Shown one piece after another: positions 32,110-62,618 of a stretch of 64,000 bases of DNA (positions within the stretch are counted from its first letter, which is position 1; every line of letters begins with the position of its first letter). The notes below the pieces were generated by a model. It was given only the letters and a program-made list of their open reading frames with translations, did not search any database and had not been told where the DNA came from. The stretch comes from Sphaerolaimus hirsutus (taxonomy: Eukaryota; Nematoda; Chromadorea; Monhysterida; Sphaerolaimidae), in NCBI GenBank assembly GCA_964036195.1, contig OZ038450.1, positions 3,598,701-3,662,700 of the forward strand, read 5' to 3'. The translations under genes and the position numbers were made by a program.

Positions 32110-32356
32110 CCGGCCCCAAAACCCTGTAAAATGTCGAATGTCTTGCAAAGTGTCAAAAGTCTTGTAAAATGTGATGCAAAGTGTTGAAATTCATGTAAAA
32201 TGCCCTGGAAAACGTCAAATAGCATGCAAAGTGTCAAAAGTCATGTAAAATGCAAACGGTCCAGTAAAACAAATCCCATTTTACGGGTCATTTTGCTTAT
32301 GTTTTCGACCCTTCGCAATACATTGGACTTTTTACAAGGTCCGGAAGTGGCCCCCG
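32110..32356 (+). mobile_element. Introner-like element upstream of the BTB start, copy 2
   Basis: Duplicate of 22885-23130, with the same ends and a few substitutions. Confidence 0.65.
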
Positions 32357-32410
32357 AGTGTGCACTCACTCTCGGCTTGCATTCCACCCGACTCCGCCCC
32401 CAGCAGCGCG

Positions 32411-42800: not shown

Positions 42801-45800
42801 ACAATAAGATTTGGAAACACATGACACTTTACAGGGTATTTTACATGACATCTGACATTTTACAGGGTATTTTACATGACACGTGACATTTTACATGTCT
42901 TTTACACTTTACAGGTTTTTCACTTACACGGGTCTTTCACTGGGTCTGGGACTGGCACCTGGCGGACGCCCTGCTCGTGCATCCACATGCCGGCGACGAG
43001 CAGGCCGGCGCCGGTGAGGAACAACAGCGCGGGCAGGATCAGCAGCGCCGTGGACACCCTCGACCAGTTGGTCACCTGCTCGCTGTCCCACCTGCGGCGG
43101 CGGGGGGGGGGGGGGGGGGTCGATTCCCGCGAGTGGAGATTAAACAGCTGATTGAGAAGTGACAAGTGAAATGGTGAGAAAAGCACATTTGTTAAAATGT
43201 ACATACATTTACTCTAAAAATACGCGTACGCGAGTACGCGGTAAATACATTTACATATACTTTTGAAAAAAGTAATGTACTCACTTTTACGAGTACATTT
43301 TAAAAGTACACGCGTACGGAGAAAATGTATTTTTGTTGCTAAAATCACAATTTTCTGTTGCTAAAAAAAGAAAATATAGAAGAAATCATATCATTTTTCT
43401 AAAAAATACTATATGATCACTAAAAAACGACATCTATTATGCCTTTCAGAGTAAAACTGACACTCTCACATGTAAAAAGTAGTAGCTTTTACATTTTTCA
43501 GGGGAAAAGTACTCGCTTTTACATTTTCCTGGGAAAAAAGTATTTCACTCACATTTACGCATGAGTACGGGTAAAAAAAGTATTTTACATTTTCTATACT
43601 TTGTGGTGAGTAAAAAAAAAATACTTACATTTACATATACTTTTGAAAAATTCTAACAACTCTGGAGAAAAGGTTAAAAGCGAGGTGAGAAGTAAAAACT
43701 TAAACGCGATGTAATTTTAGAAGTGTAAAGTTAAAAAAAGAGTAAAACGTTTAGTTCACTTTTAACTTTTTACTTGTCAAATGGTTTCCCTTCTCTACTC
43801 GCGGAGTTGGCACCAGAGTTGTTAAAAGTACTGAATTTTTTAAGTATTTATTTTTTACTTTTACTCATGAGTAAGCGTGTGTAAATTAGTTTAGTCCCCA
43901 GAAAACGTAAAAGTGAGTATTTTTGAGAGATTTTGCCCCAATTTTCACACTTTTTAACTATCAAATTCATTCGTTAATTGTGTTTTTGCCTATTTTTGTA
44001 CTATTTTGGATATTTGGTCCCTATTTTTAACTTTTGTGTTCTATTTTCCTTTATGCCTTAAAAAGTCAGTTTGAAATACGTTTTCTGTACTCGCGTACAT
44101 TCGAAAAGTACGCGAGTAAGTGAGTACCGGTATTTTTTTCGGGGGGAAACGTAAACGTATTTAAGCAGTTCGAGGATTAATATTTATCGAGTAAACGTAA
44201 CTATGGTTAGCACCGGCAATGGATCAGGGTTAAGCCAATGTAAGCAAATGACACACTGCGGCTGCCATTTTAGTTGACACGAATTTCGGATGTCAACTAG
44301 TATCTGTGGGTCCATTGTGGCCGCATCCATCAAATTCGTGAATTCATATGAGTCGTTTCAGTCTGAGTGATCGACCAACCTCGTGGCATCGCGGAAAGCC
44401 AACGGACTCCAAAGTGAAATGTGCTTATCACGGGAACTATCTCGGTTCAAGGGCTCATGTTCCGCCAGCGCGAGATTTAATTAGCCCAACGTGTTTTTTT
44501 ATCGGTCGGTCCCATTGTTATAGGTTACCGTATTCCCTCGAATTACCCCCTTGAATTCACCCCCACGCAATACCCCTCAACGTCTGCGTGTGTCGAGCTC
44601 CATAAAATTTCTGGCGAAACAATAGACCCCCCTCGAAAAAGTCCGCCCTCGGATCAATCCCCCACACCCTCAAAATTTGCTGGCGAAATAATACACCCCT
44701 TGGGGTATTTCGACGAAATACGGTGTCTTTTAAATTTTATACTGCCTTATTCAATGTACTTTTGATTGCCAGCGAAGCTGCCAATCGGGTGACAAATTCA
44801 CATTCAGAGGAGTGGCAGAAAGTGTAATTGGTGAAAAAAGGTAAAGTGCATTGTCAACTTGCGGAATTGATCCCAGATCGGTGTCAGATATTTTACGTTT
44901 TTACTAATTTTACTATTTTCCGTCTTTACCACAAAAATACGCCACTCGTCGAATTTTGCCGCGGCAGAGAATTGCAAATTCCGGTCCCTTTGCGCTTCCA
45001 CTTGCGTGCTTAATTAAATAAATAATTGGTTTTATGGTACGGGGATGTTTACACGCAAATCAGGAACGGCGCCAGTACCCCTTGGGGTCCTGACAGTTCC
45101 TGAGGACGGACACGGCAACTTACCAATCCCTTTCGTAACTGCTGCCAGCGGTTTACTTCGATTAATTGTTAAAAAGCCGTAATTAATGAAAAGCCGAAAT
45201 TAATAAAATTCAAATTAAAATTCAAGCAGTTAGTATGCTTCAGGGGGACCAAGTTGGTTTCACGGGAACTTTATTTAGCGATATAGTCAGAGTCAATTTC
45301 ACAATAGCTCAAGTGAGTCGTATAGCCTCTAGTGGGTGAAAAAATGTAAAATCAGCGCGTTTTATAATCACCAAAATCTACCATAAATGAAATGAATACT
45401 AAATCAAAGACACAACAATTAACCATAATAAGCGAAATGATAAGGCAAATTCAATGATCACTGGAAAACCGTAAACATAGCGTACCAGGCACAGGTAAAT
45501 TAATTAAATGCGGGGAAAAATCTAATTAAATAAAAACGGGTACAAATATGAATTAAACCGAGCGTAAAGTAACTGTAATTACCAATGACGTAATTAAAAT
45601 ACAATTTATCTCGTAGGTGAGTGTCGAGAACTGGGTTTCTATTCAGAGGTTACGGTACAGTCGAGAGCAGGTGGTGTGACACGTGTTATCAACCTGCGCC
45701 CCTTTAGGTGGAAAATATTTTTATAGCGCGCCCGACCAAGGCCACAGAAAGAACGCTCATTTGCGGGGGTTGTTCAAGGTTATTGCATTGCCGGGTAAGG

Positions 45801-48800
45801 GTTGGAAACTTCGGGCCTGAACACACGCCACAAGACACTAGCACTTATGAGTTCACCAATCACCCTGGGTGATGGGAATAATTAATTGGCACTGCTGTGC
45901 TCTTCACTGTAAACTGTGCTCTGCATGTGTCTTGCAGTCGCATGCCGACAATAATTGCTGTTTGCCACTTTTCCACCCATTACCTAGTCCTAAATAAAAA
46001 TGCACTTGGTCGGGGAATTTTCTGAATGTTATCTATCGGGGCGCCTAAGCATTTAACAGAGTCAACACCTGTTAGCTTAACTAGAAACATAAAAACCTTT
46101 CTAAATCATTCCCAGACACTGCACCCTTTTAACTAAAATGTAAACTTGATAAAAACCTAATAATTATGACGTTCGACAGTACATATTGGGAAAATGCAAA
46201 AAGAAAAAACGAGAGTAATCACTCAATTAACTCATAATGTGGGTAACCTAATTAGCTTAATTAATGAATCACTAAAATAAAAATTAAAAATTAGCGTCAC
46301 ATGGGAAGTAATTAAATAATTAACGGAAAAGAAACAATTAATAAATTCATGGCCGCAGTAGTGTCCATTCGGGCGTACCGTCCTGGGGCTGCGGCTTCGT
46401 TGGCGGTTTTGCAGTGCACAGCGAACCGCACGTTCACTGTGACTTCCCTGTGCACCGCGGGTCGTCATTCGGTCGCACATGGTCGTTCTCGAGTCGTCGG
46501 AGTGTCTGCGCAAAATTGTCGTTACGTTTTTACGCATGATTAGTTAGCCATATTTCTACCTACAATCCCACCAGCCATTAATTTTTTACCTCCGGGCTAA
46601 AAACGACATGTTCAGAAAAAGTGTTTTTGCACCGTTTTTTGATTATTCAAAAGTCATGCCTTCTCTGCATTTTTCGGTGGACGGCTGCGGCAGTCACATG
46701 CCCTGGGGGTGCAAATATGGCTCGTCTTCATTTGAATTATGGCATCAGCTTTCTGCCGTGCCGGCTTTTTGTGCTCGAAACTTCGAAATTTTGGTTCCCG
46801 CTCAGGGCTCGATGTGAGAAAAAGTTTTTTCTTTTGGAAACTAATTAATCAGACTACTAATCTGTGTTATTTCACAGCATCGTGCCACTGTTGGATGGGC
46901 AGTTTGGGATCAACATTCAAGTTACCTGCTCGACCGACATGTCGCAGTCCGTGCGTGTGAAAATTGATCGTCGACAAGATTTTCTAATTGTTTTCATGGA
47001 ATATTAACAAGTATGTTTTTTGTTTGCTGATTATTTTTTGTTACAGAGTTGTCTGTTTCTCCTGATGACAAAAGTTGTGCATAAATTATTACACCTTAAA
47101 ATTTTTATAATTGACTTAGGCAAAAATTGTTTCGTATCAATTTTCACAATTACCATTTTCCATGTGGTGTTCTACCTGTTGCGCTGGAGCTTCCTCCGGT
47201 GGCAGTGGGATGGCCTCGACCGCGTCGTGGTGCTCGGGCGGCGGCGAGGGGGGCTCGGCTACGTTCTGCAGTGCCATGGCCGCCATGTCGTTGCTAATGG
47301 GGGAATATTCTTCATTAGGGCGGTAAACTGGTTCGACAACGGGCACCACTTCCTCCAACACCGGCACACCCTCCTCCCGCGCGTCTGCGGAGGAGTCAGA
47401 GCCCGCGGTGGCGGTTTCAATGTCAGACAAACATTCCGCCTGCAGTTCTTCTTCGAGGGCCGGGTATCTGTCCGGTTCGACTAGTTCTTTCAAGTCGGCC
47501 CGCGGGCGCCATTCCGGAGGCCAAAATCCCAACACGTTTCCCCAAATTTGGCCTGACTCGTAAGAGTAAATCCGGTCGGCTTTGTGCTCGACCGTCAGAA
47601 ACCGGTGGAAAAAGGTTGACCACAACATGGTCTCGGCGTTGGCCACCACGATGCGCACACATTTGGCGCGGGAGGTGGCTACGTTTCCCCGGGGCAACTC
47701 CGCTACAAATCCAACTCTACCGTACGCCTTCTTGGGATCGGCATCCAGCTGGGCGGAGTCGGTTGGCGGGCTGCCGCGCACGCAGGAAATGATGACCACT
47801 TCCGCTTCCCGGGCCTGTGCTTTGTCGGCAGTAATTATGCGGGTGGCCCAGTAGGCCGCGTCGTGTTCTGTATGGGCTACTAGTCGACTAATTAGGGCGC
47901 GCGCCTGCGCCGCATAAAAACACACAATTAGCAAACTAGCGGGATCTGTGAGATCTGCCCAGGGCAGGGTGGGATCTTCTTTCACCGTGGCCACGAGGTA
48001 GTCGTACAGGTGCAGGATGATGCGCAGCTCCTTCTTGTTGATAATGGACATGCCCTCTTTTGATTCGCAGCCCTGGTGCACCAACGTTGACGACAGCATG
48101 ACGCCATCCTCGAAGTCGCCAGGCGCGGGCAACATAGTGGCGCCGTGCGCTGCGGTGTCGTTGTAGGCGCGTAGCAGTCCGTTGTACGCCGCCACTGAGT
48201 TGGCCTGAATGAGCTGGCGATGCCCGCGGAACACTGTTTCCAAGTGAACCACGGGGCATAATTGGTATTGTGTGAGCCTATCAATGAGGGTGGGGTCGGG
48301 TTTCAGGACAGGCTCCACCCAGTCTTGCACGCGAATCATACGCGTCAATTGTTTACTGTCTCCAAATAGAAGTAGCATGCCGTTCACTGGGAGCTGAGCC
48401 GCCTGAACCACGCTAATTACTGCAGCGTCAGACGCCAAAGACGCTTCGTCAATAATTACTGCACACGCAGTCACACTTTTTATACGGGCGTCGTGGGCGG
48501 AGTCTAAAGTGACATGGATTTGACCGGGCTGCACCACCTCCAAGAACACCCGGTGCAGCCTGACCGTAGCCCTGACATATTTAGACAGCGCCCTACGTAG
48601 CACCTTACCCCAAAATCCCTGATCAGCTAAACTAGCCTCACCAGCCCGGGCGCCCGCCACGCCTGCCTCGAAGTCATCGAATGGCTGCTCGTCTCCATCG
48701 TCGGCGGTGAGAAAGGGCACCTGTTCGGTCAGCTGCGCGCGTATGACGGCGTCGTCCGTGCAGTTGTTGATGATTTCGTCCACCAGTTCGTAGTCCTTCT

Positions 48801-51800
48801 TGGCGCCGTCGTACTTTTCCAGCGCTGCCGTCCATTCGGGGCTGAGGCGGACGATGTTGTGGCCGGTTCGCTGTGCTAGGGTGTGCAGGGTTGGCAATTG
48901 GGTCGCGGGGGTGGTGTTATAAGTGGGGTCAGTTTCCCACATGGGACTCAAAACGCGCACCGGAAATGCCGCTCTTAATTTCAAAAACTCTTCAAAACCC
49001 TCCAGTTTTTGCATTTCAGAAAATGGCGTATCAGCCATGGCGGTCCATTTCGCGCGTTCCCGCAATAAAACTTCTAAAGCCCCAAAAATATCCCGCTGCC
49101 CTAATTTATTCAGATTGGTCAGGGCCCTGCGCGCGCCTTCGTCGGCCGCCGAGTTGACCGTGCACGTGATGAGCGTCGAATGGTATTTGGCGTTCGGCTG
49201 CTTGTCCGATGGCAAGTCGGAGCCCGCGCGCACCCTGGGTCTCGGGTTATAATAATTATAGCCGCGTGAGCACACATACGCCAGTTGATTTTGTGTGGTC
49301 GTCTTCCCGGACCCGAAAGGCGAGTCACACATAATCAAAAGGGGTTTGCGCATTCGCACGGCTGTGATCACAGCTCCTAAAACTTCTACCTGTCCCTGCT
49401 GCGGTAGAAACTCACCTAATTTGGCCTGAATCATCTGTTCGTTTTTTCCTCTGAACAGTGATTCGTACAACTCATTAGCCTCGCGGCTAATTAGCGCCCA
49501 GTCAGTTTCGTCATCCAGCAGACGCAAATTCAATATCACTGCTAATTGGATTTGTGCCTCCAGGGTGAGTACTTTTGAGCCCTGCACTACTTTTGGCACC
49601 CAGCCGACCGGCGCTTTGTTCAAGGCGGCTTGCAGCGACCGCATGGTTCGGTCGTAATTGGGCGAGTCGTTCGAGCCGCGCACCATGTATCTTCCACTCT
49701 CCAGGGTTCGGGGCAGTGCTGATTGCGACGCCGCCATGTCCAACTTCGCACGCAGCATTGTAGTGGTTGGCTCTGATTCCACGCTGGTAATTCTGACTGA
49801 TAGATTGGGGCTGCCCGCCGCTGGTTTGTCTTCGTCCGGTCTGGCCAGCACCAAGCTCAACACCGACATGGGCGTCGCCTGGTTCAACAGCTGTGTCTGC
49901 GTGTTCACCTGCTCCAGCAAACGCACGCGCTGCTCTTCTGGTCCTTCGAAAGTGTCAGCTTGCAATTCTTCTGGGTCCGGGCGGCGCACCATAATATCGC
50001 ATGCAGTGCCCTGCGGCGTGTGCTCCCAGGACACATGTGCGCACACATCCGTTGCGCGTTTCGCACAAAACCGCAAAAATGACTCGTTATAGCAATGGGA
50101 AGCTGCTAAAATGCCCAATTTATACCTGAGAAACGCGTCCATGTTGTCTCGGTTTTCTGTGTCTGGCTGGATGCCCGTTGTGCTGATATCCTCGGCCGTG
50201 GCGACCTGCAGCCCGTACGCATGGCCGTAGAATTCGTCGCCAAACACGTCCAGATCATTCAAGTCGTGATACTCGACATGGGCCAGCCCCAACTGTCCCG
50301 CACTCAAATTTTCCACCCTACTGTCACTTACATATTCTCTGTGTAAGATGACCAACTTTTCCGGCCCGGCATCGCCCCGCTCCGTAGCGCCCAGCGGTTC
50401 CAGATTTTTGTAATTCGACGGCGTGAAGGCCGCTCGCAGCCGCGCTGTTTTCCAGTCGCTCGTGTAGGGCTGGTAGCCGGAAGTGTCGCCGCGCGTCAAT
50501 GTACGTGCCGCTTGAGTGACGCGCCGCGTGCCCTGCGTACTCACGACCACGGGGGCGGCAACGTTTAAGGGGCACTTTGTCTGATTACCCCATATCGCGA
50601 CGCCGGTAAACTCCCAGTACCGGGGATTTTCTATTTTTTGTGCGATTGCGGTCGCCGAGAAACGCATCCCGTGGCGCACCAGGGGCAGGAACATCGAGGG
50701 GTGTTGTTTCTGAATTCTCGCGCACAAATCCACCAGCTGGGTGGTCCGCTTGTCCCTAGCCGCCTTGGCCCGCTTATTCGAATAATAAAAATACGGATAG
50801 GCTTCATCCGCATTCACCCACTGCTCGTTTTCGCTGAGTATCGCCATCGTCTGCTCAGAAATTCTCACATGGCACTGATACTCAACATGCCCGTCGGCGC
50901 CCGAGTCAATATACACCCTATCTACCCAACCTTCAAATTTCCCTCTGCTGGGGTAGATTTCCGGTCCATTTTGCATCTGCTGCGCGCGGTAAAGTTGTCG
51001 CGGGGGAATGGTTCCGCCGCCGCAGGCACCATGTGTATTTGTCTCCTTGGATTTAATGGGCGGGGCGTCTGCACCTTCAAATGGGCGTTTGCGAGAGGCC
51101 GAAGCCATTATAATTATAATAATGTGATAAAATAATTAATTGCGAAGTTTTATGAACGGGGAAAGTAACAAGAACTCGTGCGGTCCAGTTGCCCGTGGGC
51201 AAAAGGGGTGCACGAGCTTCCTAAAAACACACACACTTTCACACACACTTCATACCTGTTGTACCTGGTTTCGTGTTGTTTGACGCGACGGCGATGATCG
51301 TAACGGCTAATTAATCAGCTAATTAATCAATTTTAGTCGTCGCCGTATAATTCACTGTAAGAAGGGGGAATTAAACATTCACTGGTTGCCTTGCAACGAT
51401 CTGCATGAACTACATAAATTTTCTTATTAATATTGTTGAATAAAGTCACTAATGGGTGGGCATAATCAATGCACTCATACGGGCCGATAAAGCGAGGCGC
51501 GAATTTCTTACTAGGGGCCGTCAACTGAGTAATACGCGGCGTGTATACGCGTACCGCTTGCCCGTGTTGCACATTCAATCGGCGCGCACGGCGATTGGCG
51601 TAAAATTGCTCTTTTTGCTGCGCCTTTGCTAAAGCGGTGTGCGCTGCTTCGCGTGCTGTGGTCAGACGCGCGCCTAATTCATTTATAAGAGCGCGCTTAT
51701 GCGGCAATGAGGGCAATGCCTCGTTGTCAGGGGGAGGCTCGATCATACGCTCCCACATGGACGCAGCAGGCTTGCCAAATAGCAACGCATAGGGGGTGGT

Positions 51801-54800: not shown

Positions 54801-57800
54801 TGGGGGCAGATAACTTTGCGGTCACTAACGCTTCATGTCTAGCCTGAACTTCTATTTTTTCGTTCACAATAGCGTAGATTCTGCGCTGCTGCACTTCCGG
54901 GTCGGGATTGTCAAAGGGAATTATCGCGTTAGCCGTAGGGATTCGTAGTTCTCTTGCAGGTAGGTCTACTACCATGTGCCGCAGGACGTCTGCGCCAATT
55001 AAAATTTCACCTGCTAATCCGTTCACTGCCTGAAACACAATCCCGAAGGTGTGGTTTCCCATGGTTACCGGTGTTTCCATCTGTCCCAATACCAAAAGTT
55101 TCGAGTCTGCTGCACACCTGAGGGCTCCAATAGGTGAAACTTCATCATGCTTAGTAGCCTTTTCCTTGTGCCGCATCAGCACGTCTCTGTTGCATAATGA
55201 GCGCATGGCGCCTGTGTCCAGTAGACATCTCCGATATTCTCTCCCGTCAATGGTTATGGTAATGGATGGGCTGTAGTACACATGCACAATCTCTTCACGT
55301 CGATTGGCTACTTGATGGATGTTGTCTCTTTCTTCCGTCGAGAAAGTGATCATGCACACCGATTCTTCTTCCAGATCGCATTTTCTGTTGATACTGTATT
55401 GTATAGCGGGAAAACGACGCGCGCCCGTGAGTGCGGGCATGCCACTTGGCATTCCCACACACGGGTTAATTACCGTTCTTACCTTTACCTGTTCGCTAGG
55501 GTGGTCCTCAGCCAATTCGACAATGATATTGGACTTTTCTTCTGTCTTTGGTCGCCTTTTGATTTTTTCCTTTGCCCTGTTCACCAAAGTCACGGCCGTT
55601 TCCGGCGCTGCAGCCATGAGCGCGGCTAGTAAATACTGCATGGTGACCAGTGCACATATCAGATAGATCCATACTTGTAGCCAGGTGCGCCAGGTGTCAA
55701 AATCCCACCATCCCAGCGCTAATACCGATTTTGCCAAGGTTCGATGTCTTTGCATGTGTGATTCCACTCTCGGCTCCGCCCCCTGCGTAATTTGCCGCAC
55801 GATTGAATATGCATGCCATACGTCATTCAGGGTGGTCGTCGGCAATAATTCTGACAAGTTGTACATAGTCGTGGCGGCAAAAATCTGATGATGCACATCC
55901 CTGACTTTTTCCTGTTGCCATTTCTGCGGAAAACTGTGTGTGTTATACATAGGTAAATGTTCCAGGCCGCCGACTTCCGGTAGATATTTGTACCACTGTC
56001 CATTTAACATTACCACACGATTGTGCGCATTGGTGCATGAGCCCGGGATCGCTTGAAAATGCAAAATGTTTGTCAACCTATTCATGTGCAACGTCACATT
56101 CTGCCCGTGTACACTAACTTGCACAGGTACTGTTTCGTAGCATTCTGGAGACTTCTTCTCTTTCATGATCTCGTATGTTTTTACCGCAAAACATTTGTGA
56201 ACCAAAAATCCGTCCGGCGCGGGTTTGGCAATTATTTCATTATCATTCATGTACCAGCGGGCTGTCGTAGTGGCGTGTTCACTCATAGCCAGGCGCACAA
56301 ATTCTTGGAAGTGTTGCACATTCTTGCAGGTGGCTACGGCCTGTGCACGCATGGTTTGCTCTGCTGTTTCGTATACTGCCTGCATGCTGGCTGCTAATTG
56401 GCCTGCGCTCACTATTCCCAGCGTGGGTCGACCTTGCGCTCGTTTTTGTCTGACGCTTCGAATCACTGCCTTCTCAAATGGCGCCACTACAATATCCTGG
56501 TCCGATTTCCATAATTTAATGCCGCATGACTCAACCTCTTCATGGGCTCTGAAAGACAATGATAGCGTATGATCATCGGCTAGCCAGATATCCTGTCTAA
56601 TGCGTCCATGCATTTCACGCCATTTTTCATAAGGGCATTCCGCCTTCGGGTTCGGTTTCCATGTTAATTGACTGCCGTCTTCTAGGGTGCATGCACCCAT
56701 TTCATAATTGCACTTACTAACATCACCCAGCGTGCTTTGCATGGTGTTGGCTCCATATCTCATTCGTACTTCCCCTCGAAACAGCCCACAGTGTGGCGTC
56801 GTTTCACTCACCCATTTGCAACAGTACAGTCCATGTCCTGAGTAGCTAACATTGGTGGGGTATTGAGTGTCCCATGCGTTGTCCAAATCACTCACAGGGG
56901 TCATGGGCCCATCGTTGCACTTGTGATATTTAATCATGCCTTCGCACTCGGCGGCGCCCACAGATCGGGGGTTAGAATCAAACTTTTCCAGCGTGACGTC
57001 GCCCCAGAAGTTCTGATACGTCTTTGCCGTTCTGATAGAGGCCACACACCTGTGTGCTGCCGCACGATATTCTACCATATTTCGCTTGTAGATTGTCAAT
57101 GTCAATTTTCGTGGCCGTTCTAATGACGCCGTAGTGTCAACAATAGCCGTGCAATTGGGTAGGGGGGGGTACGTGTATAAATCGTAGTGATCCGTCAAGT
57201 CACTGCAGAGCAGTGGGAACGAGGGCATGGTAGTCGCGCCCGCGCCCGGCAAAAAGGCTAATCCCATTATAATTAACCCAACTGCCAATACGAAAAACAG
57301 CGACTGTGCGACCTGAGGCATGTAGGGGGGTTCTGAATATGCGCGCGGCGCGGGGCGCACCCCTTCCTCAGTAGACAGAAAACCCATATACCTGTCTACC
57401 TGGTTGCTGGAGCCAGTACGTGGCGGCAGGGCGGCCGGCGTGGCGTACAAAAACGGGTCCAGGCTGATGTTCATGAGCACATCCAGGGGCACCTCAGTCA
57501 GCGTGTCCGAGTGGTCGTCTGCAGGGCAATTAGGCCACAACGTACAGTCCGTTTCTCTCAAATCATGCATTCCAATCCTGCGTAGAAAGGCCAGCCAAGT
57601 AGTTCGAAACAAGTAACCTTTTTCAGTTCGCATGTATGCCCACGGTTTGATCCAGAATTCCCGCTCCTGCGCGAGCACATGCATTCCAGTAGTGCGCTGC
57701 TGCTCTTCGGGTGACTCTGGAACCAGTTCGTCAGGTTCCTCATCCTCTAATTCCAAGCCTTGCATCACAGGGATTAATTTATTAACAGGACGTATCATCA

Positions 57801-60800
57801 TGCAGCGATCATCTTCGCGCACATGCATGGTCATTCCAGTCGTACTGGACACTCGCGTGGGGTTCAGCGACTCTACGTGGGGGTTACTTACCTGTACCGG
57901 TTGCATGTTATATTGTTGCATGCGCCCATCCGGTCCCATAGCCATCCAGTTAGCTGGCGGCGTTTGATAAGCCATCATTTGCGGTTGCATGTTCATATCG
58001 CCAGCCCTCTGTACCGTCTGCGCTGGTTGTACAGGCATCGGCTGCGCTGGCTGCCACTGCGGATATGCGTATTGCATGGGCACCATACCTGGCTGCATCG
58101 CTTGGGCTTGATTATTTCCCTGATAGCCACCACGTTGTCCTCCGCCGCGCCCACGTCCATTTCCTCTGGATGCTCCGCCGCCGCGGCTCCTTTTGAAATA
58201 CTGTTCCCTTTGTTCTGGGGTTAGTTTGGGGCACTCATATCTGATATGCTCTTCAGAGCCACATTCCCAACATCCTTTGTCAAATTTTCGTGGGGGCAAT
58301 TTAGGGGGGTCCCTATTCAATCCCAAAAGTTTACCTTCCAACGCGCCCAGTTGCGCTAATTTCTTCGCTATCTCTTGGTGCACAGAGTCGAATTTGGCAA
58401 CACTCTCAGTCATTTTCTGTTCCATTGTTTCTAACGTCTTGTCGGCCTGGGACGGCAGTCCAGCCATGGCGGGCATGTTTAGCGCCATCAACCTGTCCAT
58501 TACCTTGTCTGTAGCGCTGGCAACCACATCCTGTTTGGATTTTTCTCCCTTATTCTGGCTCTGTTCTGCTTCCAGAAAGCTTTCTTGTACGCGTGCGTTG
58601 TCAACCATCTCTTTCCAAGTGATAGACGCCGTGACAGGTACATTGCGCCGAATTTCATTTCTCAGCCCTCCATGAAATTTTATCATGCATGTGTCACCTC
58701 GTTTTTCATGACCCATGCCGGGATAGGCGCGTTTTATCAACTTTTCCAAACGTACCGCCCATTCCAGTACCGACTCATCTGCGCCCTGTCGCGTCTCAAA
58801 AATCTCTCTCTGTGCATGATGTTTGTCATTCGGATTTTCATAGAACTTTTCCAGTGCTTGCATCATGTCCTTGTAGTTCAGGTCGCGCAATTCTCTGTAC
58901 CGCGTGTTGAAAATGGCTCTGGCACTGCCCTTCAGAAACAATTTCACCAGCGGCTTCCGCTCCTGTAATTTTATGCGCAGCGCATCACATACCGTGTCCC
59001 AGCTCCTTCTCCAGTCCCTGAAACCCTCATTTGGCTTGCCGCGAAAATATCCACATTGTTGTGCTAAGGCTGTGATGACTGCCGCATTACTTTGCTCTAA
59101 TTGCCAATTTTGTCCCGGGTCTGTGGGCCGCGCCACTTCAGATGTAGCCGACGAGCTCCTGGAGGATGCTGGCGAACGGGATCGAGCGCGCCGCTGTGTA
59201 ACAGTTCTCACCTGGTTCGTTCCAGCTGCCGACGGGGGCGCCGCTGGTACCGTTGATGACTGTAAAGGCGCTGCTTGACCATTGGTCAGCACTATTGGCT
59301 GCTGGCCACTGACCGGTGAATTTCCTCCCAGCGTCGCATTTTGATTTTGTAGGGCTTGATTATGCTGCTGGTACGCCGTCGTCAGGTCAACTATATCATC
59401 GCCATGTAAGCTGTGGTGCTCTTCGAATTCCCTCAAGTAATGTTCCACCCTAGGTACCTCATTGACTGGGTCACTTCCCCATAAATTCATAGCAGTTTTA
59501 ATTAGCGCCACCATACGCAAATCCCCTGGTTCACCATTCTGCGAGAAAGCACCAACCGGTCTCGCCTGACTCATCATGTTTGCCCATTTCTTCGCCGCTG
59601 CACATGCCTTTTTAGGTGTCCATTGTGCACAGGTTGGCGTTGTTTGCACCGGGTCCAGATCCATTATGGTAGCTTGGTAAATTAAGTCCGCATTAGTGAC
59701 CTTTGCGTACCTGTCTTCCAGCGCCGGAGCCGCCGTCTGGTTCGCGCCGTTGTTTGTCATTCTGCTTGCGGGGCTGCTAATAACTATCACGGGGGGATTA
59801 CTTGAAATTTCAGTCTTAATTAACTGGCGTCTAGCCTTTGCAGTTGCGCTCTGCGATCTCGACTGGTCGCTCGATAAATTCCGACTGCTGTTACCTGACA
59901 CGTCTCTCGGCGTCGAAGTGCTCTTCGGTGGGCTTAACTGCAGCGCCGGGGAAGTGTCTCCGCTCTGCGCCTCTGTCTCCAGTAATTCCGCTACGGTATT
60001 TTCAATCACGGGAAATTGATCTGCAGTAGCTCCCAGCTCAGCTGCAATCAAAGGGTAATCACGTTGAATTGACGGCTGCCCTAGAGGCTTGCTGTCACCA
60101 ACGTATCCGTCTGAACCGACTTCAGAACCCGATCACACTCCAGGCGATATGGATGAGCTGCCCGCGCTCCAACCCAGTGTCCTCCGAAGCTTAGACCACT
60201 TACCTGTCTTTCCTGCTTCCTTTCCTGCAGCTTGTCTGCTTGTCCCAGGCGCTTCTTCAGTTTCTGCGCTGGACGTTAGCTGCCGTGCCGCTGCCGGTAC
60301 AGCTGGCGTCTTCCACTGACTAAAACTGTCTGGCGCAGGCCCTGCGCCTTCAACCGTTGATAATCTGATTACCGGGGTGTCCTCAGCTGTCTGTCCAGAC
60401 CAGCGTTGACTTTCACTCTCCTCTAGCGCTTCCGGCGCCTCTGTTTCAGGGTTAACCGAATCGTTCGACTCACTGTCTCCTGCTTGACTCTCAGCTGCAG
60501 CAAGTTGTGCGTCCACTTCTTGCCCAGCCTTCTGTTGTCGCGCGCGCCTTCGTGCTTGTTTTTGCTTCTCCAACGCAGCGTGCCAAACTTGTTCTATGGT
60601 GTCCCCTTGTAAGCTTGCTGGCCCCCTCGATCTCAATTCCCTTTGGGGTGACTCGTTATCCGTGAAGCCGTTTTTTGTAGAGGCGTTGATCAGGCGCCCC
60701 AGACAGAAAACTTTATGGCTTGCTTAGGAAACCACTCGCTACGCTACCAGTTGTCAGATATTTTACGTTTTTACTAATTTTACTATTTTCCGTCTTTACC

Positions 60801-62618
60801 ACAAAAATACGCCACCCGTCGAATTTTGCCGCGGCAGAGAATTGCAAATTCCGGTCCCTTTGCGCTTCCACTTGCGTGCTTAATTAAATAAATAATTGGT
60901 TTTATGGTACGGGGATGTTTACACGCAAATCAGGAACGGCGCCAGTACCCCTTGGGGTCCTGACAGTTCCTGAGGACGGACACGGCAACTTACCAATCCC
61001 TTTCGTAACTGCTGCCAGCGGTTTACTTCGATTAATTGTTAAAAAGCCGTAATTAATGAAAAGCCGAAATTAATAAAATTCAAATTAAAATTCAAGCAGT
61101 TAGTATGCTTCAGGGGGACCAAGTTGGTTTCACGGGAACTTTATTTAGCGATATAGTCAGAGTCAATTTCACAATAGCTCAAGTGAGTCGTATAGCCTCT
61201 AGTGGGTGAAAAAATGTAAAATCAGCGCGTTTTATAATCACCAAAATCTACCATAAATGAAATGAATACTAAATCAAAGACACAACAATTAACCATAATA
61301 AGCGAAATGATAAGGCAAATTCAATGATCACTGGAAAACCGTAAACATAGCGTACCAGGCACAGGTAAATTAATTAAATGCGGGGAAAAATCTAATTAAA
61401 TAAAAACGGGTACAAATATGAATTAAACCGAGCGTAAAGTAACTGTAATTACCAATGACGTAATTAAAATACAATTTATCTCGTAGGTGAGTGTCGAGAA
61501 CTGGGTTTCTATTCAGAGGTTACGGTACAGTCAAGAGCAGGTGGTGTGACACGTGTTATCAACCTGCGCCCCTTTAGGTGGAAAATATTTTTATAGCACG
61601 CCCGACCAAGGCCACAGAAAGAACGCTCATTTGCGGGGGTTGTTCAAGGTTATTGCATTGCCGGGTAAGGGTTGGAAACTTCGGGCCTGAACACACGCCA
61701 CAAGACACTAGCACTTATGAGTTCACCAATCACCCTGGGTGATGGGAATAATTAATTGGCACTGCTGTGCTCTTCACTGTAAACTGTGCTCTGCATGTGT
61801 CTTGCAGTCGCATGCCGACAATAATTGCCGTTTGCCACTTTTCCACCCATTACCTAGTCCTAAATAAAAATGCACTTGGTCGGGGAATTTTCTGAATGTT
61901 ATCTATCGGGGCGCCTAAGCATTTAACAGAGTCAACACCTGTTAGCTTAACTAGAAACATAAAAACCTTTCTAAATCATTCCCAGACACTGCACCCTTTT
62001 AACTAAAATGTAAACTTGATAAAAACCTAATAATTATGACGTTCGACAGTACATATTGGGAAAATGCAAAAAGAAAAAACGAGAGTAATCACTCAATTAA
62101 CTCATAATGCGGGTAACCTAATTAGCTTAATTAATGAATCACTAAAATAAAAATTAAAAATTAGCGTCACATGGGAAGTAATTAAATAATTAACGGAAAA
62201 GAAACAATTAATAAATTCATGGCCGCAGTAGTGTCCATTCGGGCGTACCGTCCTGGGGCTGCGGCTTCGTTGGCGGTTTTGCAGTGCACAGCGAACCGCA
62301 CGTTCACTGTGACTTCCCTGTGCACCGCGGGTCGTCATTCGGTCGCACATGGTCGTTCTCGAGTCGTCGGAGTGTCTGCGCAAAATTGTCGTTACGTTTT
62401 TACGCATGATTAGTTAGCCATATTTCTACCTACATCGGTACATTGACTCGAGTGCCGTATAATTTCACATATTCATTTGTCAACCCACCAGATCGACCTA
62501 AAAACCCATCGGGTAAAATAAATCTCGTAAATACATCGTGGGCGAAATGGGCTATCGAAAAGCCTGGCAAAAAGGACAAGAAAATCGTGAGACCCAAAAC
62601 AGCTTCCAGCCGTCGCAT
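39815..62618 (-). CDS. Two-membrane-segment protein gene, first coding exon interrupted by an LTR element
   Basis: I do not recognise this gene. Minus-strand exons: 62618-62435 continuing after the retroelement at 44877-44859, then 43091-42959, 42621-42571, 42135-41949, 41565-41489, 41197-41030, 40353-40259, 39854-39815. With the 17.5-kb element and one 4-bp target duplicate removed, all phases join and give 954 bp: 317 residues and TAA. The protein starts MRRLEAVLGLTIFLSFLPGF (signal anchor). A loop of about 45 residues follows, then a second hydrophobic span (STALLILPALLFLTGAGLLV), a Pro/Ala/Thr-rich linker, a basic helix (ALRQFAKRKRMRSTLQKLRA), a Glu/Asp-rich stretch and a terminal RRKKKRKRRRKNA. 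Introns 1, 3 and 5 onward hold introner-like elements. As assembled the first exon is split, so this allele is probably broken. The joined model is inference from phase and motif continuity. Confidence 0.65.
40065..40230. mobile_element. Introner-like element within the last intron of the minus-strand gene
   Basis: Ends TCACTGGGGGCAGCCCTGTC and TGTCTGGGAGTGGCACCAATG, with GTGTCAAAAGTCATG words inside. It sits within intron 40258-39855 but does not reach either splice site. Confidence 0.6.
40425..40722. mobile_element. Introner-like element with a TCCAAATCTTAT core
   Basis: Left CTGGGGGCACTCCAATATCC, right ATTTTACAGGGTCCGGGAGT then TGCACCTGG. The central words TATCCAAATCTTATG and AAGATTTGGATAC face each other. 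It lies within intron 41029-40354. Confidence 0.65.
41198..41488 (-). mobile_element. Introner-like element forming an intron of the minus-strand gene
   Basis: Read on the minus strand, the intron starts GTGGCACTCATGGACACTGG and ends in TTTTTCCAG before GGTCTGTGGG. Internal tandem words GTCAAATGTCATG(C/G)AAAG (41215-41310) mark an expansion. The last 21 bases of the element's inverted end would be translated if the AG is used. An excision after CCCCCCTG would also keep frame and would remove the whole element. Confidence 0.7.
42282..42420 (-). mobile_element. Introner-like element within a composite intron
   Basis: On the minus strand: GGTGCCAATTCCGTGTAAAA, the facing words TGTCAATTGTCATGCAAAG and TACATGACATTTGACAC, then ACAGGGTTTCGGACCGCC. 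It lies in intron 42570-42136 next to another palindrome at 42428-42556. Confidence 0.65.
42428..42556. mobile_element. Short palindromic element, CTAACGATGGCAAA ends
   Basis: Left GGCCTAACGATGGCAAAT and right TTTGCCATCGTTACAGGGCC are inverted repeats around about 100 bp of AT-rich sequence. It is not the introner-like family. Only one copy was seen. Confidence 0.55.
42622..42958 (-). mobile_element. Introner-like element forming an intron of the minus-strand gene
   Basis: On the minus strand it starts GTGCCAGTCCCAGACCCAGT directly after exon sequence GTCCGCCAG. It ends ACAGGGTTTGGGACTGCCCCCAG directly before GACAGACGCAAG. Both splice sites are therefore supplied by the inverted ends, phase is 0 on both sides, and the core has facing TCCAAATCTTAT words. 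Confidence 0.8.
43092..44858 (-). other. First intron of the minus-strand gene, rich in 'acttttactc' repeats
   Basis: A 1.77-kb intron. A G17-like homopolymer at about 43103-43119 lies next to the acceptor. Two blocks of the TACTTTTACTC type are at 43195-43680 and 43815-44190, facing each other in part. A 'green' inverted-repeat element is at 44527-44722. I see no coding exon. Confidence 0.6.
44527..44722. mobile_element. 'Green' inverted-repeat element
   Basis: Starts TTACCGTATTCCCTCGAATT with C tracts and ends GGGGTATTTCGACGAAATAC. It has the internal word AATTTGCTGGCGAAATAATA, shared with copies at 12640 and 19290. Confidence 0.65.
44882..46564 (-). repeat. 3' LTR of the giant retroelement
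   Basis: 1,683 bp, TG...CA ends on both strands. On the element strand a TATAAAAA box lies at 45725-45718 after a GC-rich GCGCGC and an AATAAA at 45275-45270, giving a plausible U3-R-U5 order. It differs from the other LTR near 44946, 45664, 45727, 45969 and 46240. Confidence 0.93.
46565..47136 (-). other. Element sequence between helicase stop and 3' LTR
   Basis: About 570 bp with no convincing frame on the element strand. The purine-biased GGCTGGTGGGAT next to the LTR is a weak candidate polypurine tract. Confidence 0.45.
47137..51108 (-). CDS. Superfamily 1 (Upf1/Dna2-like) helicase encoded inside the LTR element
   Basis: An intact frame of 1,323 codons starting at ATG 51108 (MASASRKRPFEG, with a nuclear-signal-like SRKRP). 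Helicase motifs: I, PFGSGKTTTQNQLA (about residue 598); II, AVIIDEASLASD (about 884); III, GMLLLFGDSKQL; a VFRGHRQ motif; VVIISCVRGS; and VI, NVATSRAKCVRIV (about 1140). These are the motifs of SF1 RNA/DNA helicases of the Upf1/Dna2/NAM7 group. The first about 580 residues match no domain I recognise. It lies 224 bp downstream of integrase, on the same strand, inside both LTRs, so it belongs to the element. A subgenomic or spliced message is likely needed to express it. A role in replication, RNA decay evasion or integration is speculative. Confidence 0.88.
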   Translation of the reverse strand: MASASRKRPFEGADAPPIKSKETNTHGACGGGTIPPRQLYRAQQMQNGPEIYPSRGKFEGWVDRVYIDSGADGHVEYQCHVRISEQTMAILSENEQWVNADEAYPYFYYSNKRAKAARDKRTTQLVDLCARIQKQHPSMFLPLVRHGMRFSATAIAQKIENPRYWEFTGVAIWGNQTKCPLNVAAPVVVSTQGTRRVTQAARTLTRGDTSGYQPYTSDWKTARLRAAFTPSNYKNLEPLGATERGDAGPEKLVILHREYVSDSRVENLSAGQLGLAHVEYHDLNDLDVFGDEFYGHAYGLQVATAEDISTTGIQPDTENRDNMDAFLRYKLGILAASHCYNESFLRFCAKRATDVCAHVSWEHTPQGTACDIMVRRPDPEELQADTFEGPEEQRVRLLEQVNTQTQLLNQATPMSVLSLVLARPDEDKPAAGSPNLSVRITSVESEPTTTMLRAKLDMAASQSALPRTLESGRYMVRGSNDSPNYDRTMRSLQAALNKAPVGWVPKVVQGSKVLTLEAQIQLAVILNLRLLDDETDWALISREANELYESLFRGKNEQMIQAKLGEFLPQQGQVEVLGAVITAVRMRKPLLIMCDSPFGSGKTTTQNQLAYVCSRGYNYYNPRPRVRAGSDLPSDKQPNAKYHSTLITCTVNSAADEGARRALTNLNKLGQRDIFGALEVLLRERAKWTAMADTPFSEMQKLEGFEEFLKLRAAFPVRVLSPMWETDPTYNTTPATQLPTLHTLAQRTGHNIVRLSPEWTAALEKYDGAKKDYELVDEIINNCTDDAVIRAQLTEQVPFLTADDGDEQPFDDFEAGVAGARAGEASLADQGFWGKVLRRALSKYVRATVRLHRVFLEVVQPGQIHVTLDSAHDARIKSVTACAVIIDEASLASDAAVISVVQAAQLPVNGMLLLFGDSKQLTRMIRVQDWVEPVLKPDPTLIDRLTQYQLCPVVHLETVFRGHRQLIQANSVAAYNGLLRAYNDTAAHGATMLPAPGDFEDGVMLSSTLVHQGCESKEGMSIINKKELRIILHLYDYLVATVKEDPTLPWADLTDPASLLIVCFYAAQARALISRLVAHTEHDAAYWATRIITADKAQAREAEVVIISCVRGSPPTDSAQLDADPKKAYGRVGFVAELPRGNVATSRAKCVRIVVANAETMLWSTFFHRFLTVEHKADRIYSYESGQIWGNVLGFWPPEWRPRADLKELVEPDRYPALEEELQAECLSDIETATAGSDSSADAREEGVPVLEEVVPVVEPVYRPNEEYSPISNDMAAMALQNVAEPPSPPPEHHDAVEAIPLPPEEAPAQQVEHHMENGNCEN
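51333..54041 (-). CDS. Retroelement RT, RNase H and integrase
   Basis: About 900 codons continuing pol in another frame after the break at 54042-54046. RT shows SSADINQAFYNIAL, RLPMGLKCSPS and the catalytic LLYIDDLLIYS (about 53835). RNase H shows FIIITDASKIAVAGVLAQ (about 53380) and a later WTDAKSI. Integrase shows a zinc-binding HNHPTAGH...CPSC (about 52430-52300), catalytic Asp in VDAIGPL (about 52210), Asp in LSDNAPSF (about 52035) and Glu in SNGMVERRNGV (about 51930). The C-terminus ends at TAG 51335-51333. The domain order places the element with Ty3/Gypsy rather than Copia. No other stops are seen, so only the single break separates this part from the upstream frame. Confidence 0.9.
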   Translation of the reverse strand, partial: SSADINQAFYNIALHPDDRHITSFRNVFGQFQLKRLPMGLKCSPSLAQRCFELAMAGLIHRNVLLYIDDLLIYSATWETHLYDIGQVLERLIRNNFKISPKKCFFARVTAVRFLGFMIGRDGVCVPDDKRHIIQDWPVPTTVKEVKGFLGAIGFFRRMIHRCAELAVPLSNLTRTGPRENYNSDTPVDLTSKPKALEAFHKLKEALLGSPCLQFPDPKRMFIIITDASKIAVAGVLAQRAEDEKILHACAFYSRKLGATQSKWPAISLEACAIYKSIRNWHCYLAGRPFEVWTDAKSISWVKNPNLETTPHAMLHKFALAITPYQITFKHLRGKSNELADALSRRQDAPVVFDEKKDLDEAFEQFAQVTCREIAIPHDKQVTVAAASRTAYQPISVNEEAELLRPISDRTRGRKEAESPGLRERQRNAEAPGTGTMAGGSGAGNEVVPGLTSVNKRSTIMALPPMTSVDKLKRLQAEEPYIATTIEVCRADNFYSAAPYFIDQYGLLRRQAGTSQIPGIQLYDPVCIPSELVPFVLELAHNHPTAGHLGIIKTFERLQEFAWFPGMRPESARWVATCPSCNAKKGLRAAMRTQMVCRQVAKRPGDVIAVDAIGPLLTTKRRNRHVLVFVDQCTRFGIAVPVPDIKQDTVSFAFLLHILPIFSVPAIILSDNAPSFTEGTFAKLLQYLNATQHTSFAYTPKSNGMVERRNGVLMEIVSHYVNRTHDDWDIHLGAAVHAYNTSKHPSLQTTPYALLFGKPAASMWERMIEPPPDNEALPSLPHKRALINELGARLTTAREAAHTALAKAQQKEQFYANRRARRLNVQHGQAVRVYTPRITQLTAPSKKFAPRFIGPYECIDYAHPLVTLFNNINKKIYVVHADRCKATSECLIPPSYSELYGDD
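54040..60132 (-). CDS. Retroelement gag, env-like module, protease and RT start, one frame
   Basis: A single open frame of about 2,030 codons. Counting from 60051: a gag capsid region at about 334-497 (motifs YFRGKPNEGFRDW, LFLKGSARAIF, GADESVLEWAVRLEKLI), a CCHC zinc knuckle at about 592 (CWECGSEEHIRYEC), an Arg/Gly-rich stretch at about 620-645 and a Gln/Met/Pro-rich stretch. Then comes an env-like unit: hydrophobic signal at 912-940, Cys-rich ectodomain with several N-glycosylation sites, a furin-type site (RQKR) near 1203 followed by a mildly hydrophobic run, and a membrane anchor at about 1454-1478. Then an aspartic protease (LLDTGAMRSL near 1610, ILIGADVL) and the start of RT. The frame stops inside RT at an A5 run (54042-54046). 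Putting env between gag and protease without a stop implies membrane insertion and processing of a polyprotein, or splicing. Confidence 0.85.
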   Translation of the reverse strand, partial: SGSEVGSDGYVGDSKPLGQPSIQRDYPLIAAELGATADQFPVIENTVAELLETEAQSGDTSPALQLSPPKSTSTPRDVSGNSSRNLSSDQSRSQSATAKARRQLIKTEISSNPPVIVISSPASRMTNNGANQTAAPALEDRYAKVTNADLIYQATIMDLDPVQTTPTCAQWTPKKACAAAKKWANMMSQARPVGAFSQNGEPGDLRMVALIKTAMNLWGSDPVNEVPRVEHYLREFEEHHSLHGDDIVDLTTAYQQHNQALQNQNATLGGNSPVSGQQPIVLTNGQAAPLQSSTVPAAPPSAAGTNQVRTVTQRRARSRSPASSRSSSATSEVARPTDPGQNWQLEQSNAAVITALAQQCGYFRGKPNEGFRDWRRSWDTVCDALRIKLQERKPLVKLFLKGSARAIFNTRYRELRDLNYKDMMQALEKFYENPNDKHHAQREIFETRQGADESVLEWAVRLEKLIKRAYPGMGHEKRGDTCMIKFHGGLRNEIRRNVPVTASITWKEMVDNARVQESFLEAEQSQNKGEKSKQDVVASATDKVMDRLMALNMPAMAGLPSQADKTLETMEQKMTESVAKFDSVHQEIAKKLAQLGALEGKLLGLNRDPPKLPPRKFDKGCWECGSEEHIRYECPKLTPEQREQYFKRSRGGGASRGNGRGRGGGQRGGYQGNNQAQAMQPGMVPMQYAYPQWQPAQPMPVQPAQTVQRAGDMNMQPQMMAYQTPPANWMAMGPDGRMQQYNMQPVQVSNPHVESLNPTRVSSTTGMTMHVREDDRCMMIRPVNKLIPVMQGLELEDEEPDELVPESPEEQQRTTGMHVLAQEREFWIKPWAYMRTEKGYLFRTTWLAFLRRIGMHDLRETDCTLWPNCPADDHSDTLTEVPLDVLMNISLDPFLYATPAALPPRTGSSNQVDRYMGFLSTEEGVRPAPRAYSEPPYMPQVAQSLFFVLAVGLIIMGLAFLPGAGATTMPSFPLLCSDLTDHYDLYTYPPLPNCTAIVDTTASLERPRKLTLTIYKRNMVEYRAAAHRCVASIRTAKTYQNFWGDVTLEKFDSNPRSVGAAECEGMIKYHKCNDGPMTPVSDLDNAWDTQYPTNVSYSGHGLYCCKWVSETTPHCGLFRGEVRMRYGANTMQSTLGDVSKCNYEMGACTLEDGSQLTWKPNPKAECPYEKWREMHGRIRQDIWLADDHTLSLSFRAHEEVESCGIKLWKSDQDIVVAPFEKAVIRSVRQKRAQGRPTLGIVSAGQLAASMQAVYETAEQTMRAQAVATCKNVQHFQEFVRLAMSEHATTTARWYMNDNEIIAKPAPDGFLVHKCFAVKTYEIMKEKKSPECYETVPVQVSVHGQNVTLHMNRLTNILHFQAIPGSCTNAHNRVVMLNGQWYKYLPEVGGLEHLPMYNTHSFPQKWQQEKVRDVHHQIFAATTMYNLSELLPTTTLNDVWHAYSIVRQITQGAEPRVESHMQRHRTLAKSVLALGWWDFDTWRTWLQVWIYLICALVTMQYLLAALMAAAPETAVTLVNRAKEKIKRRPKTEEKSNIIVELAEDHPSEQVKVRTVINPCVGMPSGMPALTGARRFPAIQYSINRKCDLEEESVCMITFSTEERDNIHQVANRREEIVHVYYSPSITITIDGREYRRCLLDTGAMRSLCNRDVLMRHKEKATKHDEVSPIGALRCAADSKLLVLGQMETPVTMGNHTFGIVFQAVNGLAGEILIGADVLRHMVVDLPARELRIPTANAIIPFDNPDPEVQQRRIYAIVNEKIEVQARHEALVTAKLSAPMDEKLFTVMGLDTVGERCGVMAASAAYETSAPVFQVRCANVRNQPVVLQVGQRIAVVEPVDCVLKVKPGDPPAEWVKQCYDRDVCRQVQATEPPPKVAKDKLGPPLQVACPDGHVMEFTVPETLTDERREELKKVILQYKEAFARHKYDIGYSELVDYRLQLVDKKPIACRMYRLSLDDQQYLENHLRCLIEHDIVEPSTSPYCAPTLVVSKPDGSKRMVIDYRRLNAVLHAPQFPLPRLDETVESLCSCKYF
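55620..57330 (-). other. Env-like glycoprotein module inside the polyprotein frame
   Basis: Visible layout: an internal signal-type hydrophobic segment (about 57316-57235), roughly 500 residues with many cysteines and sequons (NCT, NVS, NVT, NLS), one basic cleavage-type site about halfway (near 56445), and a C-terminal membrane span (about 55690-55620) followed by a Lys/Arg-rich tail. This is the usual plan of a class of viral fusion glycoproteins, but I cannot assign a family (baculovirus F-like, phlebovirus Gc-like and others would need profile searches). Described only as an old or recent genomic copy. Confidence 0.65.
60133..60636 (-). CDS. Retroelement gag N-terminal segment, ending at an in-frame TGA
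   Basis: About 167 codons (open further upstream to about 60720) of charged, Ala/Glu/Gln/Ser-rich sequence resembling a disordered gag N-terminus. It has a basic cluster (KQKQARRRARQQKAGQ) followed by an acidic region. No ATG is present in the frame, so initiation must be non-AUG or by splicing, or the start is lost. The stop TGA at 60135-60133 is in the same frame as the long downstream frame, with no intervening stop, so readthrough would fuse the two. The context after the stop is TCG. Confidence 0.6.
   Translation of the reverse strand: MRSRGPASLQGDTIEQVWHAALEKQKQARRRARQQKAGQEVDAQLAAAESQAGDSESNDSVNPETEAPEALEESESQRWSGQTAEDTPVIRLSTVEGAGPAPDSFSQWKTPAVPAAARQLTSSAETEEAPGTSRQAAGKEAGKTGKWSKLRRTLGWSAGSSSISPGV
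60637..60751 (-). other. Leader and candidate primer-binding site
   Basis: Immediately inside the 5' LTR the element strand reads AC then TGGTAGCGTAGCGAG. A TGG start two bases after the LTR is typical of a tRNA-primed minus-strand start; I cannot assign the tRNA. A reading frame continuous with gag opens after a TAA about 30 bases in but shows no ATG. Confidence 0.45.
60752..62434 (-). repeat. 5' LTR of the giant retroelement
   Basis: 1,683 bp and almost identical to 44882-46564. The TATAAAAA box is at 61595-61588 and AATAAA at 61145-61140. A frame of 101 codons starting ATGCGTAAAAACG (62407-62102) is intact in both LTRs but Arg-rich and without a recognised domain. Confidence 0.93.

Follow-up and report, generated by a model that had tools for sequence, protein, structure and literature searches.

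Does a helicase gene that lies between the two long terminal repeats (LTRs) of a retroelement belong to that element, or was it trapped there by chance? This question was raised by a 64,000-nucleotide stretch of the nematode Sphaerolaimus hirsutus genome (contig OZ038450.1, positions 3,598,701 to 3,662,700; hereafter the window, to which coordinates refer), in which a Ty3/Gypsy element spans positions 44882-62434 on the minus strand. An initial annotation had reported a full gag-pol followed by a helicase gene, and had proposed that the helicase was selected as part of a moving element. We found that the helicase is a regular gene of a multi-copy family, occupying the same position in almost every copy examined, and that strong purifying selection acted on it as the element multiplied.

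A helicase gene shared by the element family

The outline of the element was as initially described. Its two LTRs, 1,683 bp each, were 99.70% identical (five mismatches, all transitions, no gaps) and the 4-mers on both outer sides were TCGG. In the element orientation the LTRs started with TGTAGG and ended with CTGACA. Three long open reading frames (ORFs), all on the minus strand (Table 1), gave the order LTR - gag - env - protease - reverse transcriptase (RT) / +1 shift / RT - RNase H - integrase - helicase - LTR. The TG..CA ends of the LTRs (TGT...ACA), the 4-bp target-site duplication and the order protease - RT - RNase H - integrase (the protease below the Pfam cut-off, but with a DTGA motif) are in agreement with Ty3/Gypsy, an assignment based on domain order and database matches. 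The protein search with ORF2 gave 20 matches, to RT/RNase H/integrase proteins and some of them fungal, which were too distant to place the element. BLAST of the window against itself found no second copy of the element in the window, and viral contig scans with pol, helicase and env gave no match.

ORF3, the intact 1,323-codon frame reported initially, is a Upf1-like superfamily 1 (SF1) helicase. The profile comparison suggested at that time agreed: the AAA_12 domain scored well over its Pfam cut-off (88.1 bits vs 27), and both AAA_11 (21.7 vs 27) and the alphavirus-like Viral_helicase1 profile (14.7 vs 21) remained below theirs. We place SF1 motifs I, II, III, V and VI at amino acids (aa) 596, 883, 912, 1091 and 1141. 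The closest PDB matches were UPF1 and a helicase recorded as 5'-3' RNA helicase-like, which we take to be Sen1-type. A match to the IGHMBP2 family of NCBIfam was below that family's cut-off. The AAA_12 domain is shared with the host helicases UPF1, Sen1 and IGHMBP2, but the identity to host UPF1 exon pieces was only 27% over 96 aa. UPF1 proper carries an N-terminal CH zinc domain, whereas aa 1-540 of ORF3 had no Pfam family at E 10. A search of the helicase against 5.8 billion proteins returned no match at E 0.001.

Further copies were searched in the source animal's own genome (348 Mb, 762 contigs). The scored copies were the best candidates of each search, and decayed copies are under-represented among them. 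The best 35 of 615 helicase candidates were all full length, with ~99% aa identity, and 34 had no internal stop; the single stop was at codon 1,321 of 1,323. The ORF2 end, spacer, helicase and tail were found within a 7-kb stretch in all 35 loci, together with part of an LTR in 34. In eight loci the coordinates gave the sequence of parts as ORF2 end - spacer - helicase - tail - LTR, except that one of them (L007) had no LTR match and a shortened tail.

The LTRs and ORF2 led to the same place. From the LTR search (best 40 of 665 candidates) we obtained 14 pairs, including that of the window, and 12 single LTRs. The spacing was 15,863-15,884 bp in 12 pairs, and 16,567 and 19,213 bp in the other two. 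Each of the 14 pairs enclosed a single helicase domain, at a distance of 2,740-2,768 bp from the 3' LTR's outer end. Near the single LTRs, a helicase was among the matches listed for three and not for nine. A helicase domain lay at most 3.8 kb downstream of ORF2 in 47 of 50 scored copies (best 50 of 2,271 candidates); it was farther away in two, and for one there was none among the matches listed.

The PF13087 search (best 150 of 454 candidates) returned 148 element-type matches, scoring 89.7-97.8 bits and covering almost the same part of the profile. From score and profile range we infer that all 148 are element copies. The open frames around them had at least 1,323 aa in 91 cases, at least 1,300 aa in 99 and less than 1,000 aa in 36. 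The two top matches (177.7 and 146.6 bits) were pieces of host UPF1 exons; further host helicases could lie lower among the 454 candidates. Nearly the same UPF1 exon was present in L042 (G000:C65, a 90-kb contig) and L043 (G000:C14, a chromosome-size contig), and the name-based search for the host UPF1 pieces used L043 only. The two are probably allelic or a duplicated assembly, so that copy numbers from short contigs may be counted twice. Two identical helicases were also located on short contigs, and a few contigs looked allelic.

Had one copy picked up a host or foreign helicase between its LTRs by chance, through one-off capture or nested insertion, there should be full-length copies without it and a nearly identical host gene elsewhere, as the initial annotation pointed out. 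The helicase does differ in composition from the rest of the element, as a captured gene would. However, it accompanied the ORF2 end and tail in 35/35 loci, was present in 14/14 LTR pairs and beside 47/50 ORF2 copies, was only 27% identical to the host UPF1 exons found among the matches listed, and had the low ratio of nonsynonymous to synonymous polymorphism (pN/pS) described below. The copy survey refutes chance capture, to which we assign practically no probability.

Two arrangements departed from the single-element layout. On G000:C6, two helicase copies on one strand (7580792 and 7596669) were 15,877 bp apart. This distance equals one unit of LTR plus interior, and the two are probably tandem elements with a common LTR. 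At G000:C1:18526834-18534238, two same-strand ORF2 copies were 4,660 bp apart, and no helicase immediately followed the upstream one. This is a rearranged copy.

The 35 aligned helicases had no gap across 3,972 nt. Their 525 variable sites fell on codon positions 1, 2 and 3 in numbers of 94, 42 and 389, and the pairwise distance had a median of 2.1% and a maximum of 4.5%. The pooled pN/pS was 0.049, with a mean pS of 0.077; by part, it was 0.055 for aa 1-555, 0.039 for aa 556-1200 and 0.067 for aa 1201-1323. Invariant residues numbered 1,221 of 1,323. Motifs III and VI were identical in all copies, and single copies deviated at one residue in each of motif I, motif II, the putative Ia and the putative IV. 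Motif V varied at aa 1091 (I in the window, V in the other 34) and at aa 1107 (V in 23, I in 12). In the 34 copies outside the window, gaps were found in 33 tails (up to 22) and in all 33 matched LTR parts (up to 26).

For comparison, pN/pS was 0.069 in the last third of ORF2 (30 gapless copies, five gapped ones left out) and 0.060 in env (six sequences including the window, one with an internal stop; a copy with a 1-base gap was left out). The helicase gave 0.039 in the seven copies sampled for env, including the one left out of the env set. Constraint on the helicase was at least as strong as on the measured parts of pol and env, and the proposal that it was selected within a moving element was supported.

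If the helicase were a passenger that a single, very recent burst had spread and that had had no time to decay, the 5/1,683 differences between the window LTRs and the near identity of some copies would be explained. Such a passenger would be required to have a pN/pS near 1, whereas the helicases diverged by up to 4.5%, with 389/525 variable sites in third positions, and gaps accumulated in the non-coding flanks with none in the helicase. A single burst is disfavoured by these data and we consider it highly improbable. Selection could also have been exerted by the host, retaining the helicase as an antiviral or silencing factor, as argued for viral SF1 helicases in insect retroelements in passages of one report (PMC6338049). 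But the constraint extended over many dispersed copies and matched that of the measured pol and env parts, as would fit selection acting while the element replicates; a gene kept for the host should be constrained at one or a few loci. Service to the host is, in our judgement, quite unlikely.

Structure of the element and its surroundings

The gag-pol domains were present in the expected order, in agreement with the initial annotation, which had overlooked the env in ORF1 and the frame change in the RT. Coordinates of all features are collected in Table 1.

Table 1 Features of the element and their positions in the window, listed in element orientation.
Feature	Position	Strand	Remarks
Target-site duplication TCGG, right	62435..62438		
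5' LTR	60752..62434	-	TATAAA at LTR positions 840 and 1199, AATAAA at 1290; last ATG 61254 (LTR position 1181)
Predicted 5' untranslated leader	59761..61253	-	1,493 nt without ATG, LTR to gag ATG
Candidate primer-binding site	60732..60749	-	TGG..., two bases past 5' LTR; putative assignment
Predicted splice donor CAG/GTAAGT	60203 (first intron base)	-	in leader, tied best
ORF1	54040..60051	-	2,003 codons from TTG, first ATG 59760; gag - env - protease - RT start
Retrotrans_gag domain	58708..58947	-	Pfam, ORF1 aa 369-448
Predicted splice donor CAG/GTAAGT	57891	-	between gag and env, tied best
Env-like glycoprotein region	55482..57387	-	in frame between gag and protease
Aspartyl protease region	54976..55263	-	DTGA at ORF1 aa 1612; Pfam matches below cut-off
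Frame switch AAG TAT TTT TAG C	54039..54051	-	ORF1 end to +1 frame of ORF2
ORF2	51333..54080	-	915 aa; remainder of RT, RNase H, integrase with zinc domain
Top-scoring predicted splice acceptor (CCCCCTTCTTACAG/)	51354	-	very end of ORF2, 246 nt before helicase ATG
Second predicted splice acceptor	51220	-	in ORF2-helicase spacer
ORF3	47137..51108	-	1,323 aa, Upf1-like SF1 helicase; core about aa 590-1160
AAA_12 (Upf1-like C-terminal helicase) domain	47635..48291	-	ORF3 aa 940-1158
Tail between helicase and 3' LTR	46565..47136	-	572 bp, gap-rich among copies
3' LTR	44882..46564	-	differs from 5' LTR at 5/1,683 positions
Target-site duplication TCGG, left	44878..44881		

In ORF1, the gag domain was followed by a CCHC knuckle at aa 593-609 (Pfam match below cut-off). 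Downstream of it, aa 1103-1360 matched Monjiviricetes_fusion (29.2 bits vs a cut-off of 27, E 3e-7). Viral fusion glycoproteins of this type have a class III fold. This env region was flanked by strongly hydrophobic segments (aa 910-942 and 1457-1483), and had a furin-type RQKR at aa 1201 and four N-glycosylation motifs. It was found at the same offset in 6/6 additional copies retrieved. A PDB search with env gave only chance-level matches, and a search against 5.8 billion proteins gave none at E 0.001. Env and helicase identities disagreed between the same copies (env pieces L036-L041 compared with helicase copies L003, L009, L026, L012, L017 and L022). For example, the window and L003 were 94.8% identical in env and 98.4% in the helicase. 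Such discordance hints at template-switching recombination among copies.

The Pfam domains of pol were RVT_1, RT_RNaseH, Integrase_H2C2 and rve. The RT is divided between ORF1 and ORF2, with a +1 change of frame at AAG-TAT-TTT-TAG-C, directly before what is presumably the catalytic RT motif, SADINQAF. The site was identical in 17/17 copies (16 further ones and the window), and the surrounding 201 nt aligned without gaps. Variable sites upstream of the ORF1/ORF2 overlap fell on third positions of ORF1 in 8/11 cases, and downstream on third positions of ORF2 in 2/2; the overlap itself had one variable site. Among the 50 scored copies, the ORF2 frame was 915 aa long in 48 copies and 919 aa long in the other two; 48 had no internal stop. 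An RT broken in the window copy only is ruled out by these 50 frames: the frame switch is a family trait. The +1 change is probably programmed frameshifting, and the site resembles classical +1 recoding, in which a P-site UUU slips by one base at a stop codon.

The same switch could be an inherited defect, in copies moved in trans by unsampled helpers. A frame switch within a catalytic domain is unusual, and the scored copies were the best 50 of 2,271 candidates. Yet ORF2 past the switch was stop-free in 48/50, its last third had a pN/pS of 0.069, and the 13-nt site was invariant where the third-position pattern changes frame. An inherited defect is therefore unlikely, though we give it somewhat more weight than service to the host.

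Rfam and tRNA scans of the window gave no match. Elsewhere in the window there was a segmental duplication, of 21495-24020 with 30721-33247 (98.0% identity) and of 26492-29790 with 33238-36546 (98.9%). The duplicated blocks join with a 10-base overlap in the second copy. The segment 24021-26491 of the first copy, home to most of an RT ORF (24828-26600, RVT_1), thus looks inserted there, with a short duplication of the target. Two palindrome-like stretches, 35548-37016 and 29270-29790, matched their own reverse complement (87.6% over 1,479 columns and 82.6% over 523, respectively). Open stretches at about 1000-3650 with DENDNEP and ATDKDSGRYG were judged by eye to be putative exons of a cadherin-repeat gene. 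The window also had a BACK/Kelch-type ORF, which, like the host UPF1, is consistent with an animal genome.

Expression and a possible role of the helicase

The predicted leader contained no ATG, compared with a mean of 25 and a minimum of 11 in 2,000 mononucleotide shuffles. The ATG-free stretch began 17 nt upstream of the LTR TATAAA at position 1199. Genomic RNA would start near LTR position 1,230, and ribosomes would scan through the leader to the gag ATG. A +1 shift at UUU-UAG-C would then yield the remainder of Pol.

The helicase is probably read from a spliced mRNA, in the manner of a retroviral env. Spliced from the donor at 60203 to the acceptor at 51354 or 51220, such an mRNA would have the helicase ATG as its first or nearly first. 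One short upstream ATG (51253) preceded it from acceptor 51354, and none from 51220; the 120 nt before the helicase ATG were ATG-free in 35/35 copies. The motif of acceptor 51354, CTTACAG, was present in 34/35 copies and that of 51220 in 28/35.

The helicase would act on nucleic acid or RNA-protein complexes of the element itself. In the least certain step of our model, it would be a Upf1-like RNA translocase working on the long RNA of the element, with its several genes and its internal stop, where it would remodel RNA-protein complexes to allow export, packaging or reverse transcription. Alternatively, it may shield the RNA from nonsense-mediated decay or silencing. Retroviruses such as HIV-1 leave such tasks to host helicases. 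Nonsense-mediated decay attacks RNAs with a stop far ahead of a long downstream sequence, and the genomic RNA would be ~15 kb long, with a stop inside pol and kilobases of sequence behind it. A Upf1-like protein could be a competitor in decay, or could act as the helicase that HIV-1 takes from its host; HIV-1 has none of its own and exploits cellular ones (PMC3484045).

An export role is equally open, like that of CERV in Cer1. CERV is an accessory protein made from a spliced mRNA and required for the export of unspliced genomic RNA; in the portions of that report on hand it is not described as a helicase, and the genomic RNA is ~8.4 kb without a gag-pol stop (PMC10309623). As a tentative extension, the helicase may be an essential replication gene, its translocase letting the ~15-kb RNA, with an in-frame env, a stop inside the RT gene and a very long stretch behind it, escape decay and be copied, and RT being made only via a programmed +1 frameshift within its catalytic domain; we see this as possible rather than expected.

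Taken together, we consider it likely that the element belongs to a multi-copy, env-bearing Ty3/Gypsy family, similar to endogenous retroviruses, with the helicase as a regular selected gene, a frame switch, and an expression and own-RNA role as modelled above. Several points weigh against this reading. Selection signifies that the gene matters to the element and says nothing of what the gene does. Only the best candidates were scored, and pN/pS may be biased low as a result. The copies are closely related and some are probably on allelic contigs, so that their counts are not independent events, and the analysis covers the DNA sequence of one species only. One of the 35 helicases carried E888K in motif II. 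The helicase had a third-position G + C content of 0.65, compared with 0.45-0.53 in the other element genes, and its relative synonymous codon usage correlated at 0.18 with ORF2 and 0.52 with env; this deviation could mean a younger arrival. AlphaFold2 single-sequence models had mean predicted local distance difference test scores of 33.1 for the helicase core, leaving fold and activity unconfirmed, and of 39.6 for env, too low to confirm the fold. Among ten mononucleotide shuffles, the best donor score (12.5) was reached by one and the best acceptor score (10.8) by six, so that only the positions speak for the splice sites. Acceptor 51354 lies inside the ORF2 coding sequence, and its conservation is no independent proof.

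Relation to known retroelements

The comparisons below draw on parts of the papers cited. The initial annotation knew of no ordinary LTR retrotransposon group encoding a helicase. This has to be qualified, since viral SF1 helicase domains occur in insect long interspersed nuclear elements (LINEs), and two insects have them as fusions to Ty1/Copia protein domains (PMC5563155, PMC6338049). For Ty3/Gypsy elements that encode a Upf1-like helicase as a gene of its own, searches of one open-licence full-text library showed no example; relatives in subscription papers or repeat libraries are quite possible. The insect retroelements also carry an SF1 domain with preserved motifs (Lazareva 2015, PMC4686597; Morozov 2017, PMC5563155). 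However, their helicases are of the plus-strand RNA virus type and mostly in LINEs, and the LTR cases are only ORFs fused to a Ty1/Copia RNase H or integrase (PMC5563155), whereas here a complete Ty3/Gypsy family has a separate Upf1-like gene.

In errantiviruses, such as gypsy of Drosophila, env is a separate ORF downstream of pol, while here env lies inside ORF1 upstream of the protease and ORF3 is the helicase. The same downstream position was given for other gypsy-like elements (PMC6431247). The gene order was that of Burro, a giant Gypsy-like element of planarians, described as the first case with env in frame between gag and pol. The likeness includes a Ty3/Gypsy pol, a mononegavirus-type fusion glycoprotein in frame between gag and protease, a very large size and domains beyond gag-pol (PMC6431247). 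Burro is >30 kb, with a polyprotein of ~4,900-5,100 aa carrying MATH/TRAF, BIR, BCL2, ankyrin, dUTPase or midasin-like domains, and the text at hand does not describe an SF1 helicase gene (PMC6431247). None of these accessory domains was detected in our ORF1 by Pfam at E 0.01, nor in ORF1 pieces at E 1. We therefore regard the element as arranged like Burro and not as a Burro, the two being likened by gene order and not by comparison with Burro sequences.

Bdelloid rotifer LTR elements similarly have an extra enzymatic ORF after pol, and one lineage has an env from negative-strand RNA viruses. Their ORF3s encode a GDSL esterase, a DEDDy exonuclease or an env-like protein, with no helicase gene described in the sections on hand (PMC5408684). 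Anakin is likewise an LTR element with a captured glycoprotein of a negative-strand RNA virus (a chuvirus), but it belongs to Bel-Pao, its survey had no clear Gypsy capture, and a helicase is not mentioned in the portion available (PMC10084718). Troyka was rejected as a relative: it is a different lineage, with CG..CG ends, a 3-bp target-site duplication and no env (PMC12440569).

What appears new is the combination of an env-bearing Ty3/Gypsy family with its own selected Upf1-like helicase, a Burro-like order and a conserved frame switch in the RT. A conserved frame switch within the RT would be an unusual recoding site. The gag-env-pol order, of which Burro was the first case, gains a further example. 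With a helicase of its own, the family allows a test of where in retroelement replication the supply of helicase is limiting, and of whether a long stop-containing genomic RNA needs its own Upf1-like protein against decay.

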